Virus record (IMG/VR): IMGVR_UViG_3300044641_002616
Coordinates: 1-30,276 of that record
From: a virus
Direction: 5' to 3' (one strand)
DNA: 30,276 bases
Shown: one piece after another, positions 20,835 to 28,089 of the stretch
Numbering within the stretch: the first letter of the stretch is position 1
How the letters are laid out: every line of letters begins with the position of its first letter
Position numbers and translations under genes: made by a program
Notes under the pieces: generated by a model
Seen by the model: the letters and a program-made list of their open reading frames with translations, nothing else
The model's database searches: none
Told to the model about the DNA's origin: nothing

Positions 20835-21152
20835 ATGCCTCTCAAAGATCCTTCTGAATACCTTTACTTTCTTAAGGCCATGACCGCAGCCGAAGCTAAG
20901 CGTATGTGGAGAACAGCCATTAAAGAACACTGGAACAACCAGTGTGTCTACTGTGGCTCATCTGAAAACTTAACGCTCGATCATGTCCATCCAAAGGCCC
21001 GAGGTGGTCACGACACTACTCATAATGTTGTGCCCGCCTGCCTAAATTGCAACCAGTCTAAAGGTTCGAACCACTGGTTGTCTTGGTGGGTCGGTCAAGA
21101 CTTCTTTGACCACAAAAACTTCTCCAGGGTTCTGTCCTGGACTACCGGTTAG
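20835..21152 (+). CDS. HNH endonuclease (1)
   Basis: 105 residues. A zinc ribbon Cys37-x2-Cys40 and Cys69-x2-Cys72 frames the HNH core: LTLDHVHPKARGGHDTTHNV contains Asp49-His50 and Asn64 of the beta-beta-alpha-metal fold, and CLNCNQSKGS completes it. HNH genes next to terminase genes are frequent in tailed phages, either as packaging-linked nucleases or as free-standing homing endonucleases; sequence alone does not decide. TAGG about 8 bases upstream of ATG 20835 is a likely ribosome site. It stands between basic small proteins and a virion-type gene. Confidence 0.85.
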   Translation: MPLKDPSEYLYFLKAMTAAEAKRMWRTAIKEHWNNQCVYCGSSENLTLDHVHPKARGGHDTTHNVVPACLNCNQSKGSNHWLSWWVGQDFFDHKNFSRVLSWTTG

Positions 21153-22400: not shown

Positions 22401-22535
22401 GTGCCCCTTTCTCGTGGATCTTCAAAGAAGACGGTCTCCAAAAACATCTCCAAGATGGTAAAGGAGGGTCGTCCCCAAAAGCAGGCCATTGCGATTGCCC
22501 TTTCCAAAGCTGGGAAGAGCCAGAAGCGTAAATAG
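22401..22535 (+). CDS. Small basic protein (44 residues) of a widespread phage family
   Basis: Starts with GTG at 22401, two bases after the previous stop. The sequence [20 protein letters not shown] followed by [17 protein letters not shown] matches a family of very short phage proteins with the pattern S-K-x-x-I-x-x-x-x-x-x-G-x-P-x-x-Q-A-x-A-I-A-L (DUF6496-like as I recall). Function unknown; the helical, positively charged fold suggests nucleic-acid binding. Directly followed by a terminator-like hairpin. Confidence 0.65.
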
Positions 22536-22543
22536 CCACCATC

Positions 22544-22572
22544 GGGTCCTGTATGCCCCTACAGGGCCCTTT
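22544..22572 (+). terminator. Terminator-like hairpin before the second HNH gene
   Basis: GGGTCCTGTA at 22544-22553 pairs with TACAGGGCCC at 22560-22569 (one T-G wobble) around a 6-base loop; TTT follows at 22570-22572. The T run is short, so termination may be partial. It ends the basic-protein cluster. Confidence 0.6.
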
Positions 22573-22587
22573 CACATATGTTTAGGC

Positions 22588-23091
22588 ATGTTGACACTAT
22601 TACAAGGTCCGGGCCACCTTAGAGCCCATTTACAGCGCCATATTAATGCACCTTCTCAGTGGTACTATCCGTATCATTGCAGTTTTTGTCACGCTCAAGT
22701 TGAATTGTTACTTGCAAACGCTAGAAAACAACAAGGATGTGTTTGTAGAAAAGGCGTAAGGCATGGACAACATGGAACGGTAGAACATGAAATGTGGGAA
22801 AGATCAAAACGCCGGGCCCGGAAGAAAGGGTTTGAGCATACGATCAACTACACAGACATAAACGTACCATCCCACTGCCCATTGCTTGGAATTCCCTTGT
22901 TTCGTAGCGAAGGCAAGGGAGGTTGTGACAACTCTCCATCTTTAGATAGAATTGATTCATCTAAAGGCTACACTCCAGATAACATTTGGGTTATTTCTAA
23001 CAAAGCTAATTCTATTAAATCAAATGCAACCCTTGAAGAACTCGAAGCAATCGCCACAAGATTTAGAGCAAAGATTGAAGGAAAACTTTAG
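22588..23091 (+). CDS. HNH / endonuclease VII-like homing endonuclease (2)
   Basis: 167 residues if started at ATG 22588; the start is uncertain because no good ribosome site is seen. An N-terminal zinc-finger-like group (Cys31-x2-Cys34, Cys51-x-Cys53) is followed by MWERSKRRARKKGFEHTINY and then the catalytic block SPSLDRIDSSKGYTPDNIWV with ISNKANSIKSNATLEELE, typical of phage HNH nucleases that carry an L-D-R-I-D-x-x-x-G-Y-x-x-x-N motif. The gene is AT-richer than its neighbours and ends inside the 5' end of the large terminase frame, as expected of a mobile homing endonuclease. It may also act in packaging. Confidence 0.75.
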   Translation: MLTLLQGPGHLRAHLQRHINAPSQWYYPYHCSFCHAQVELLLANARKQQGCVCRKGVRHGQHGTVEHEMWERSKRRARKKGFEHTINYTDINVPSHCPLLGIPLFRSEGKGGCDNSPSLDRIDSSKGYTPDNIWVISNKANSIKSNATLEELEAIATRFRAKIEGKL

Positions 23092-25216: not shown

Positions 25217-25882
25217 ATGCCTCAAGTAAAGCTCATCTGGATTACACCAGACGCAGAGTCCATTATTACCTACTGTGCTCGGGTATCCAACCCAACGAAC
25301 CAAGAAGCCAATGCCAACCCAGAACGGTTGATCGACTACTTGGTTAAGCATAAGCACTGGAGTCCCTTTGAGATGGCCAGCGCCTGCCTTGAGGTAAACA
25401 CGACCCGTGACATCTCGGCACAGATCCTCCGGCATCGGTCATTCTCGTTTCAGGAATTCTCGCAGCGGTATGCGGAGGTTCAATTGAAACCGGAGATTCC
25501 CGATTGGAGGCGACAGGACCTGACCAACCGGCAAAACAGCATCGATGACCTTGATCTAGAAGCTATTGCTGAGGCAGATCAACTTTGTGCCAATGTAATT
25601 AAACAATCAACGCTGGCGTATCAGCGTCTCCTTGAGCTTGGTGTGGCAAAGGAGTGTGCCAGAAAGGTCCTGCCCATGAACAGTCCTACCCGCCTCTACA
25701 TGTCTGGGACAATCCGCTCGTGGATCCATTACCTTTCGGTGCGTACTGGTGTGGAGACGCAGCTGGAGCATCGACAGATTGCCCAAGAGATCAACACCAT
25801 TCTCATTAACCATCTTCCCTCGTTGACCAATGTCTTTAACTCTTTCTCAGGCCAAGCGTGTGGTGGCTGTGGCTCCCATTGA
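25217..25882 (+). CDS. thyX: FAD-dependent thymidylate synthase ThyX
   Basis: 221 residues. The ThyX signature R-H-R-x-x-S-x-x-x-x-S-x-R-Y is complete at residues 72-85 (RHRSFSFQEFSQRY). Upstream, KHKHWSPFEMASACLEV carries the conserved H-x-S-x-x-E block that binds substrate and flavin; the C-terminal SGTIRSWIHYLSVRT with a following Gln/Glu/His block (EHRQIAQEI) is the dUMP-binding helix region. The enzyme makes dTMP from dUMP with methylenetetrahydrofolate, FAD and NADPH, feeding phage DNA synthesis. Phages, including cyanophages, often carry it. No Shine-Dalgarno site is seen. It lies just after a repeat-rich gap, apparently as first gene of a new transcription unit. Confidence 0.95.
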   Translation: MPQVKLIWITPDAESIITYCARVSNPTNQEANANPERLIDYLVKHKHWSPFEMASACLEVNTTRDISAQILRHRSFSFQEFSQRYAEVQLKPEIPDWRRQDLTNRQNSIDDLDLEAIAEADQLCANVIKQSTLAYQRLLELGVAKECARKVLPMNSPTRLYMSGTIRSWIHYLSVRTGVETQLEHRQIAQEINTILINHLPSLTNVFNSFSGQACGGCGSH

Positions 25883-26381: not shown

Positions 26382-26401
26382 GTTAAGATATCTTGAGCAG
26401 G

Positions 26402-26749
26402 ATGGACCGATGGGCAAAGCTGTGGTTAGGATGGCGTCAGTTCACAAACACTCCCATGAACACCTCAACCTTCACCCGCAACATCGCAGCCGCTGATCAA
26501 TTCATTGATTGGTTGGTCGCTTCTGTTCGTCTGAGCGATCTGCGCTGGCAGGATGACGAGTCCGGCATGTGGTTTCAACGTGTCCCCAGCGATGAAATTT
26601 TCGACAACGCCTATGGAGAGCTGGCTGATGCTTGGTCGGATCTGAAATGGTATGAACAGAAGTATGTGATCAGCGCTGCTGCCGATCAGCTGGCTGAGAT
26701 CGAAGCCCTCAGTAATGAGGCATCCGCTCTGATCCGTGGTAGGATCTGA
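26402..26749 (+). CDS. Hypothetical small acidic protein, first gene of early-type run
   Basis: 115 residues from ATG 26402; ATG 26456 (97 residues) is an equally possible start, and the extra N-terminus is Trp-rich and basic (MDRWAKLWLGWRQF). The core is helical and acidic with many Trp and Tyr (VASVRLSDLRWQDDESGMWF, then ELADAWSDLKWYEQKY). No family recognised. Early small acidic proteins of phages often bind host enzymes; that is inference. Its position just after a promoter candidate and two palindromes suggests early transcription by host polymerase. Confidence 0.6.
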   Translation: MDRWAKLWLGWRQFTNTPMNTSTFTRNIAAADQFIDWLVASVRLSDLRWQDDESGMWFQRVPSDEIFDNAYGELADAWSDLKWYEQKYVISAAADQLAEIEALSNEASALIRGRI

Positions 26750-26812: not shown

Positions 26813-27445
26813 ATGAAACGGGTCAAACCACGCGCCAACTCTCGCCACATTCTCGGAATGCTCGGGCTTGCCTCAGCTGCCGACATTGCTCAAGGTTGCA
26901 GCTGGTATCAACGCGCCTATGATCTCGGCGTCAGCTTCTGTCGCGCTTACGATGGGCTAACACTAGGGCAGGCAATCGGGGTTATTGCAGCATTGAGCCC
27001 CAACAACAAGTGGGCACGTAATGTTGCCGATGCAGAGGCTATGATCAAACTCTGGCACGCTGGAACTGATCCTAGAACCGCAAGGGTTTGCACCTACAAT
27101 ACCAACAAGGACAAAGCAGCTCGCATTCTTGAGTTGGAATCACCAGACGATGAGGCCATCCAAAAAATACTATCGGGGCAAAAGGTTGTAGCCTTCTATC
27201 GTTGCATCGCAGGCTACCGTGATACGGTTTGCGTAGACGGGCACGCGTTCGCTATCTTTATGGGTGAACGCATCCCTACAACTCAAACGCCGAGCATTGG
27301 TAAGGCACTCTATGCTGCCATCACCCGATCCTACATCCTCGCTAGTGAGCGATCCTTTGAAGCCTGCGGCCACCACCTAACACCAGCTCAAGTCCAGGCT
27401 GTCACATGGGTCACGTATCGGAGGCTTCTTGGTTATGACAATTGA
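26813..27445 (+). CDS. Conserved phage protein with HhH-GPD DNA-glycosylase-like features
   Basis: 210 residues. Motifs I recognise from many unrelated phages: VIAALSPNNKWARN at about 57-70, GQKVVAFYRCIAG at 122-134, VDGHAFAIFMGE at 141-152 and LTPAQVQAVTWVTYRR at 189-204; the family (DUF7178-like as I recall) has no assigned function. The block SGQKVVAFYRCIAG...VCVDGHAF resembles the endonuclease III segment G-V-G-R-K-T-A...V-D-T-H-I-F, and Lys124 to Asp142 are 18 residues apart, as are catalytic Lys120 and Asp138 of E. coli Nth. The C-terminal Fe-S cysteines are absent. A DNA repair or base-excision activity is a hypothesis. Neighbouring genes overlap it by 11 bases downstream; the leader is CA-rich. 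Confidence 0.7.
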   Translation: MKRVKPRANSRHILGMLGLASAADIAQGCSWYQRAYDLGVSFCRAYDGLTLGQAIGVIAALSPNNKWARNVADAEAMIKLWHAGTDPRTARVCTYNTNKDKAARILELESPDDEAIQKILSGQKVVAFYRCIAGYRDTVCVDGHAFAIFMGERIPTTQTPSIGKALYAAITRSYILASERSFEACGHHLTPAQVQAVTWVTYRRLLGYDN

Positions 27446-27617
27446 GCGTAAGTACTACGTGACGACCGGCACCCGTACCATGCGGGGCGGATGGCGGGTG
27501 AATGAGGGCAGGGTTATCTACGCTGCCGACTATTCACAAGCCTACCGCATCGCCGCCAGATCATGTTATCGTAGCGAACAAGTTATCACCCTTGAGGAGA
27601 TCCCACACCATGGCTGA
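27435..27617 (+). CDS. Hypothetical 60-residue protein
   Basis: ATG 27435 lies inside the end of the previous gene (11-base overlap), and the 3' end overlaps the next gene by 8 bases, so it is probably translated by coupling. The sequence MTIERKYYVTTGTRTMRGGW with ADYSQAYRIAARSCY looks like a small beta-beta-alpha domain with a Tyr-rich core. No family recognised. Confidence 0.6.
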   Translation: MTIERKYYVTTGTRTMRGGWRVNEGRVIYAADYSQAYRIAARSCYRSEQVITLEEIPHHG

Positions 27618-28089
27618 TTGTTCTACTCTGTCTGCTCAATGGCAGGCTGGCCAACACACCACACCAACACCAGCAGAGCGCACAGACTTTAGGCTCTGGC
27701 TGTTGTCTGAGTTTGGCAGGATGCGAGCATCAGGGATTGAACCACTGTTTGTCACCCGTGAGGTTCCCATTGAGGAGGCAATGGCGGCACTTGATAGGGT
27801 AGTGTTGCCGGGTGAGACTCGCTGGCTTCCGGTATCTCGCCTTAACAATGAGCCAAACCCTGATCTTATGTCTACGCAGCAGAACCTAATGTTCAGGGCT
27901 GTTCATGATTGGACCCACTGGAAGTTGGGCGCTGGTGCTACTTTTGAGGGTGAGTTTGCGGTTGCTATGGCACACATAGAGTCTGCGCCTTCGTCTATTC
28001 ATTGGATCCTGTGGTCTGAGGTTGCTGGCCAGGCAGCCACCGCTATAACTACCGGAAAGTTCCCACAACAAAAACTCGTCAAGATGTAA
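27610..28089 (+). CDS. Conserved phage protein with HD-x2-H / E / H / E motif, possible metalloprotein
   Basis: 159 residues from ATG 27610. The C-terminal half holds polar residues spaced as in a metal site: FRAVHDWTHWKLG (His99, Asp100, His103), TFEGEFAVAMAH (Glu113, Glu115, His122) and LWSEVAGQ (Glu137, Gln141), ending in FPQQKLVKM. I recall a similar F-R-A-x-H-D-x-x-x-H ... E ... H ... E-x-x-G-Q pattern from proteins of other phages without a known activity. The N-terminal 60 residues are helical. GAGGAG at 27595-27600 is a fair ribosome site. It is the last gene before a strong terminator, together with the 26813 and 27435 genes. Confidence 0.6.
   Translation: MADCSTLSAQWQAGQHTTPTPAERTDFRLWLLSEFGRMRASGIEPLFVTREVPIEEAMAALDRVVLPGETRWLPVSRLNNEPNPDLMSTQQNLMFRAVHDWTHWKLGAGATFEGEFAVAMAHIESAPSSIHWILWSEVAGQAATAITTGKFPQQKLVKM

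Follow-up and report, generated by a model that had tools for sequence, protein, structure and literature searches.

The window analysed here is an IMG/VR virus record of 30,276 bp that carries genes of a T7-like podovirus, including those for the major head, tail and internal virion proteins, an endolysin and terminase. At 26813..27445 (+ strand) lies a gene with an ATG start whose 210-aa product we predict to be an OGG-like HhH-GPD DNA glycosylase. The initial annotation described this product as an orphan, but it belongs to two families, DUF7178 (PF23802; 141 bits, E 5e-41, against a gathering cut-off of 27 bits) and phrog_3842 (E 1e-52). Compared with its close relatives the gene has a dN/dS of about 0.07-0.08, and it is under strong purifying selection. 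The end of the gene overlaps a conserved small ORF of 60 aa (27435..27617, + strand), which in turn overlaps the start of a 159-aa gene related to phrog_3170 (27610..28089, + strand), here called the partner. Upstream, a ThyX thymidylate synthase gene (25217..25882, + strand) is given as context only; ThyX is present in 21/102 representative DUF7178 loci, mostly in close relatives of the window. Directly upstream of the DUF7178 gene there is an ORF of 118 aa (26393-26749), which has 44-80% identity in relatives of the phage and no family match. In addition, two free-standing HNH/endonuclease genes (20835-21152 and 22489-23091; phrog_2214 and phrog_3322) lie 5′ of the terminase gene.

DUF7178 is listed in Pfam as a family of unknown function, and a literature search for it found nothing. 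By tblastn the family was found in 137 sequenced phage records, from mycobacteriophages, gordoniaphages, streptomyces phages, microbacteriophages, cyanophages and roseophages, and in 165 records with a second query; many environmental virus records also carry it. Among 84,980 species genomes scanned there was a single relative, in a MAG classed as Candidatus Izimaplasma, and the Pfam model had no match among 14 control cellular genomes, which shows that DUF7178 is mainly a virus family. Several depositors have named relatives glycosylase, N-glycosylase or N-glycosylase/DNA lyase (S-CRES3 gp63, Cece 22, WilliamBoone 181, Shagrat 113, DroogsArmy 83, Kumao 115 and Dorin 6). A literature search for phage OGG enzymes returned only a Streptomyces phage HhH-GPD gene, which matches pfam00730 and whose membership in DUF7178 is not shown, and the unrelated Brig3 system. 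In Mycobacterium phage BTCU-1 (KC172839.1, 43964-44290; H113) a partial match lies under a gene named repressor; probably either the annotation is wrong or the copy is broken. In cyanophage NATL2A-133 (GU071104.1, 41666-42249; H6) the match is split between two annotated ORFs, which points to a likely frameshift or an error in sequencing. As for other neighbours, three actinophages, Cece and Zooman of Microbacterium and Sheen of Mycobacterium, have SprT-like protease genes a few kb or less from DUF7178 (L050 1679-2140, L138 585-1052 and L133 3153-3626), and this is a candidate association. Genes for Lsr2-like DNA bridging proteins are found near DUF7178 in Cece and adjoining it in Rhodococcus phage Dorin (L050 5213-5554 and L395 3657-4325).

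The window protein reads S-G-Q-K124-V-V-A and, further on, V-C-V-D142-G-H144-A-F. It had been proposed that this Lys/Asp pair has the spacing of endonuclease III, with 18 residues in between; the offset from K124 to D142 is indeed 18, as in endonuclease III, but the residues in between number 17. Conservation was counted in 222 distinct ORFs of the DUF7178 family. The predicted nucleophile K124 (codon 27182..27184, + strand) and the predicted catalytic Asp, D142 (27236..27238, + strand), are conserved in 222/222, while H144 (27242..27244, + strand), for which invariance was also to be checked, is His in 188 ORFs and is replaced, solely by Trp, in the other 34. Within a set of 53 diverse members, whose identity to the window protein is as low as 23%, the Lys-Asp spacing ranges from 17 to 21 and is most commonly 18 (26/53), and the invariant residues include W31, Y32, S62, W67, N70, K124, F128, D142, Q195, A196 and W199. 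By itself, the Lys/Asp motif is weak evidence of kinship with glycosylases: among 259 unrelated ORFs 150-300 aa long in the flanking DNA, 4 (about 1.5%) contain the pattern K.{17}D.H, as do 1% of shuffles of the window protein. What lifts the motif beyond chance is the conservation of K124, D142 and H/W144 across the 222 ORFs. A further conserved motif, S62-P-N-N-K-W-A-R-N70 (26996..27022, + strand), in which S62, W67 and N70 are invariant, lies at what we infer to be the position of the gap-filling Asn/Gln loop of OGG1 and endonuclease III. The cysteines of the protein are at 29, 43, 93, 131, 140 and 185 and form no Fe-S cluster, as was noted at the outset.

The AlphaFold2 model of the window protein, built from a 53-sequence alignment, is all-helical and has a pLDDT of 95.7 and a pTM of 0.91. 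Residues 113-133 (27149..27211, + strand) form a helix-hairpin-helix in the secondary structure of the model (helix 113-120, hairpin 121-122, helix 123-133); K124 stands at the start of its second helix, and D142 opens helix 143-150. All of the best 50 VIA-align rows for this model were HhH-GPD proteins. At the top were archaeal and Thermotoga OGG2 enzymes (3knt, Z 11.9, 4.1 A across 181 residues; 3n0u, 11.8; 3fhg, 11.8; 3fhf, 11.2), followed by endonuclease III (1orp, 9.7), AGOG (1xqo, 9.6), hOGG1 (9.2) and MagIII (9.1). Since chance Z scores up to 13-14 are possible for helical models, the purity of this list outweighs the Z values themselves. The first 11 Foldseek matches were all OGG enzymes as well, with a best E value of 0.046 and all E values above 0.001. 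The predicted fold is thus HhH-GPD and not an unrelated one, which agrees with the family proposed in the initial annotation, as does the Lys/Asp pair; the nearest solved relatives, however, are 8-oxoguanine glycosylases, chiefly OGG2 enzymes, rather than endonuclease III.

Sequence comparisons gave a fainter signal. Against PDB chains, profile A1 (E 0.02) and the broader profile A5 (E 0.08-0.15) both ranked OGG2 first, weakly, but a profile built on alignment A2, of 44 sequences, lost the OGG2 matches to the PDB, which shows that the sequence-profile evidence alone is fragile. A PDB search with the window protein as a single sequence gave chance matches only, and the HhH-GPD model PF00730 did not match DUF7178 at E 10 or less. 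The hhalign comparison with Nth/MutY relatives was not significant (5% probability, P 0.008) and placed K124 and D142 in register; D142 fell on the catalytic Asp both of MjOGG2, in the profile alignment, and of Nth, in hhalign. Taken together, the structural model supports membership of DUF7178 in the HhH-GPD superfamily by fold, with OGG2 as its nearest relative.

The predicted base pocket lies near the C-terminus, in Q195-A-V-T-W199 (27395..27409, + strand). Both Q195 and W199 are present in 221/221 ORFs, one ORF ending earlier, and in the profile alignment Q195 falls on Asp194 of MjOGG2 and W199 on Trp198. The equivalent base-binding pairs are Gln315/Phe319 in hOGG1, Asp194/Trp198 in MjaOGG2 and Asp218/Trp222 in AGOG, and the phosphate of the lesion is contacted by a His (His270 of hOGG1; a His in MjaOGG2) or by a Trp (Trp243 of CacOGG1) (PMC3397491). 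The His or Trp at position 144 of DUF7178 therefore corresponds to the two residues that OGG1 enzymes have at that site. Judged from the aligned residues, the pocket has a Gln like OGG1 and a Trp like OGG2, and its conservation points to a guanine-type base as substrate. Three sensors of 8-oxoG are known, namely Gly42 of OGG1, the C-terminal Lys of OGG2 and Gln31 of AGOG. No counterpart to any of the three was identified in DUF7178, whose C-terminal residue is variable (Lys in 29/222, Asn in the window protein), which leaves specificity for 8-oxoG putative.

In its build the window protein most resembles OGG2 (MjOGG2, 3knt/3fhf; SsOGG2, 3fhg; TmOGG2, 3n0u), with a single chain of about 205-215 aa, no A-domain, an HhH-GPD fold, a Lys-Asp offset of 18, an invariant Trp corresponding to Trp198 and no Fe-S cluster. 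In contrast to OGG2, with which its identity is only 8-12%, DUF7178 has Gln195 for Asp194, lacks a conserved C-terminal lysine and is borne by phages. With OGG1 (human OGG1 and CacOGG1) it shares the Gln at the Gln315 site, the His/Trp two residues past the catalytic Asp and an HhH-GPD core that aligns over about 155-164 residues, but at 210 aa it lacks the A-domain and Gly42, has Trp in place of Phe319, and its model aligns only from about residue 116 of hOGG1. The likeness to AGOG (Pa-AGOG, 1xqo) consists of the HhH-GPD fold and a stacking residue of the Trp222 type, whereas in AGOG the hairpin is non-canonical and reversed and K140 and D172 are 32 apart, compared to a Lys-Asp spacing of 17-21 in DUF7178. 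Endonuclease III has the equally spaced Lys/Asp pair, but its C-terminal 4Fe-4S cysteines are absent in DUF7178 and its fold match is weaker than that of OGG2. With no OGG1 A-domain, no OGG2 C-terminal lysine and no AGOG spacing, DUF7178 looks like a separate phage branch of OGG-like proteins, outside OGG1, OGG2, AGOG and endonuclease III.

We found that a second conserved family accompanies DUF7178, adjacent to it in either order or fused to it, and this is what seems to be new. In the window, the overlapping starts and stops suggest that DUF7178, the 60-aa ORF (15 distinct matches, relatives at 32-100% identity) and the partner are probably co-translated. When viral contigs were searched with the partner family only, 33/38 loci contained DUF7178, and many of these loci are closely related to the window. 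After clustering at 55% identity, 13/16 partner clusters shared their locus with DUF7178, which was adjacent on one side or the other or was fused, a figure that somewhat overstates the linkage because the clusters were partly found via DUF7178 searches; the partner-only count of 33/38 is cleaner. Among the remaining three clusters, the records of L344 and L346 have DUF7178 elsewhere and those of L345 and L348 have none. The linkage is one-way, as most DUF7178 loci have no partner nearby. The invariant residues of the partner (N92, F95, R96, H99, D100, H103, G114, E115, E137 and Q141) probably form a metal site. Its model has a pLDDT of 95.8, and its fold matches were weak, with zincin-like peptidases among the best rows (Z 2.7-3.8); the motif, however, is HDxxH and not the zincin HExxH, and in some members the two His are one residue further apart. 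The sole sequence lead was a local match to a Coq4-type protein (3msq, E 0.66), in which the HDxxH-x11-E spacing fits, and Coq4 was not among the structural matches listed for the partner model. Both the zincin and the Coq4 readings are weak. An aromatic amino acid hydroxylase, guessed from an HDxxGH motif, was also considered and dropped, as no tool result backed it.

Fused or virion-type forms were found in several phages. In Rhodococcus phage E3, gp205 (858 aa, annotated as a structural protein) consists of a partner domain and an interrupted DUF7178 domain, and in Bixzunavirus I3, gp110 (DUF7178-like, 682 aa) adjoins gp111 (partner, 433 aa) between the genes for the major head protein and head decoration. 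Two environmental contigs encode proteins of 1954 and 1988 aa in which the partner is followed by DUF7178; their genes lie 3′ of the portal and tail protein genes, one of them directly before a tail-fibre-type gene. The catalytic Lys and Asp and the pocket Gln and Trp are kept in the proteins from E3 and I3 as well as in the two giant ones. At the position of the giant fusion genes, T7-like phages encode internal virion proteins that are ejected, and this position makes it likely, but unproven, that the giant proteins are delivered with the DNA. The 1954-aa fusion (L347 and L389, 4394-10255) also has a weak match to a glycine-zipper membrane segment at residues 1051-1081, below the family cut-off, which might suit a membrane-crossing protein. 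A literature search found no virion proteome paper for Bixzunaviruses or phage E3. In addition, a Foldseek search of viral models placed the DUF7178 fold inside many phage proteins of 600-1500 aa, some of them named ART-PolyVal-like. These large multidomain proteins are similar in style to the polyvalent and internal virion proteins surveyed by Iyer et al. 2017, although DUF7178 in the window is a stand-alone gene, and the text of that survey names no base-excision glycosylase domain (PMC5512222).

We propose, with a probability of roughly 0.6, that DUF7178 is a bifunctional glycosylase/lyase that acts on altered guanine early in infection. On this reading, the helix-hairpin-helix would bind damaged or modified DNA, and a purine would be flipped out, stacked on W199 and read at its edge by Q195; the most likely purine is a guanine that has been oxidised or altered in another way. 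D142 would then set up the attack, K124 as the nucleophile would break the glycosidic bond, and the backbone would be nicked by beta-elimination. Prediction and conservation together support the fold and the Lys/Asp pair well; the guanine-type substrate is predicted from the pocket only. The early timing is suggested by the virion forms and by placement upstream of RNA polymerase in cyanopodoviruses, as the RNA polymerase gene lies 3′ of DUF7178 in S-CBP42 and 9515-10a. Early in infection the enzyme, which in some phages would work jointly with the partner encoded downstream, would act on the entering phage genome and repair either guanine damage or an adduct installed by the host.

The main rival reading, which we consider unlikely but still of some weight, keeps an OGG-like glycosylase and changes its purpose: the substrate would be a base adduct or a modified guanine made by host defence or a rival phage (ADP-ribosylated or 7-deaza guanine), and the role would be counter-defence instead of oxidative repair. 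The virion-type fusions and the early placement suggest action during genome entry, which would suit such a role, as would the lack of an identified 8-oxoG sensor, and injected polyvalent phage proteins have been linked to counter-defence (PMC5512222). There is, however, no direct sign of such a substrate, and the Q195/W199 pocket suits ordinary 8-oxoG equally well. It is improbable that DUF7178 is aimed at host DNA, which the initial annotation named as a possibility, and makes abasic sites or nicks in the host chromosome for takeover; the early gene position in podoviruses fits this idea, but host DNA contains few lesion bases, for hosts as diverse as these no host-specific base is known, and no accompanying nuclease stood out among the recurrent neighbours of DUF7178. 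An endonuclease III-type glycosylase for uracil or pyrimidines is very improbable: the Lys/Asp spacing, the Z of 9.7 for 1orp and the nearby ThyX are consistent with it, whereas OGG2 ranks above (Z 11.2-11.9), the Fe-S cluster is absent and Q195/W199 match the purine pocket of OGG enzymes. Finally, a DNA-binding or lesion-sensing scaffold without catalysis has precedents in glycosylase homologues that sculpt abasic DNA (Mag2 entries 4b23 and 4b21 are among the VIA-align matches) and is the hardest to credit, because K124 and D142 are invariant in 222 ORFs and kept in the fused forms.

For the preferred reading, a glycosylase/lyase on altered guanine, the fusion with the partner in virion-type proteins suggests that these phages act on DNA bases at the start of infection. 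As a tentative extension, DUF7178 and the partner may form a two-part phage base-excision module of an OGG-like glycosylase and a metal-site protein, encoded as a short operon in small phages and, in others, fused into an ejected virion protein and delivered along with the DNA, that would mend damage gathered in the virion or remove adducts installed by the host on the entering genome. For the partner family, which is uncharacterised, the link to DUF7178 is the first functional context. To our knowledge, phage base excision at genome entry has not been described. DUF7178 is a predicted OGG-like enzyme, largely confined to phages, and the catalytic and pocket residues are all fixed, so that it can be assayed directly. 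Injection of the virion-borne forms, if it occurs, would place base excision at the moment of genome entry.
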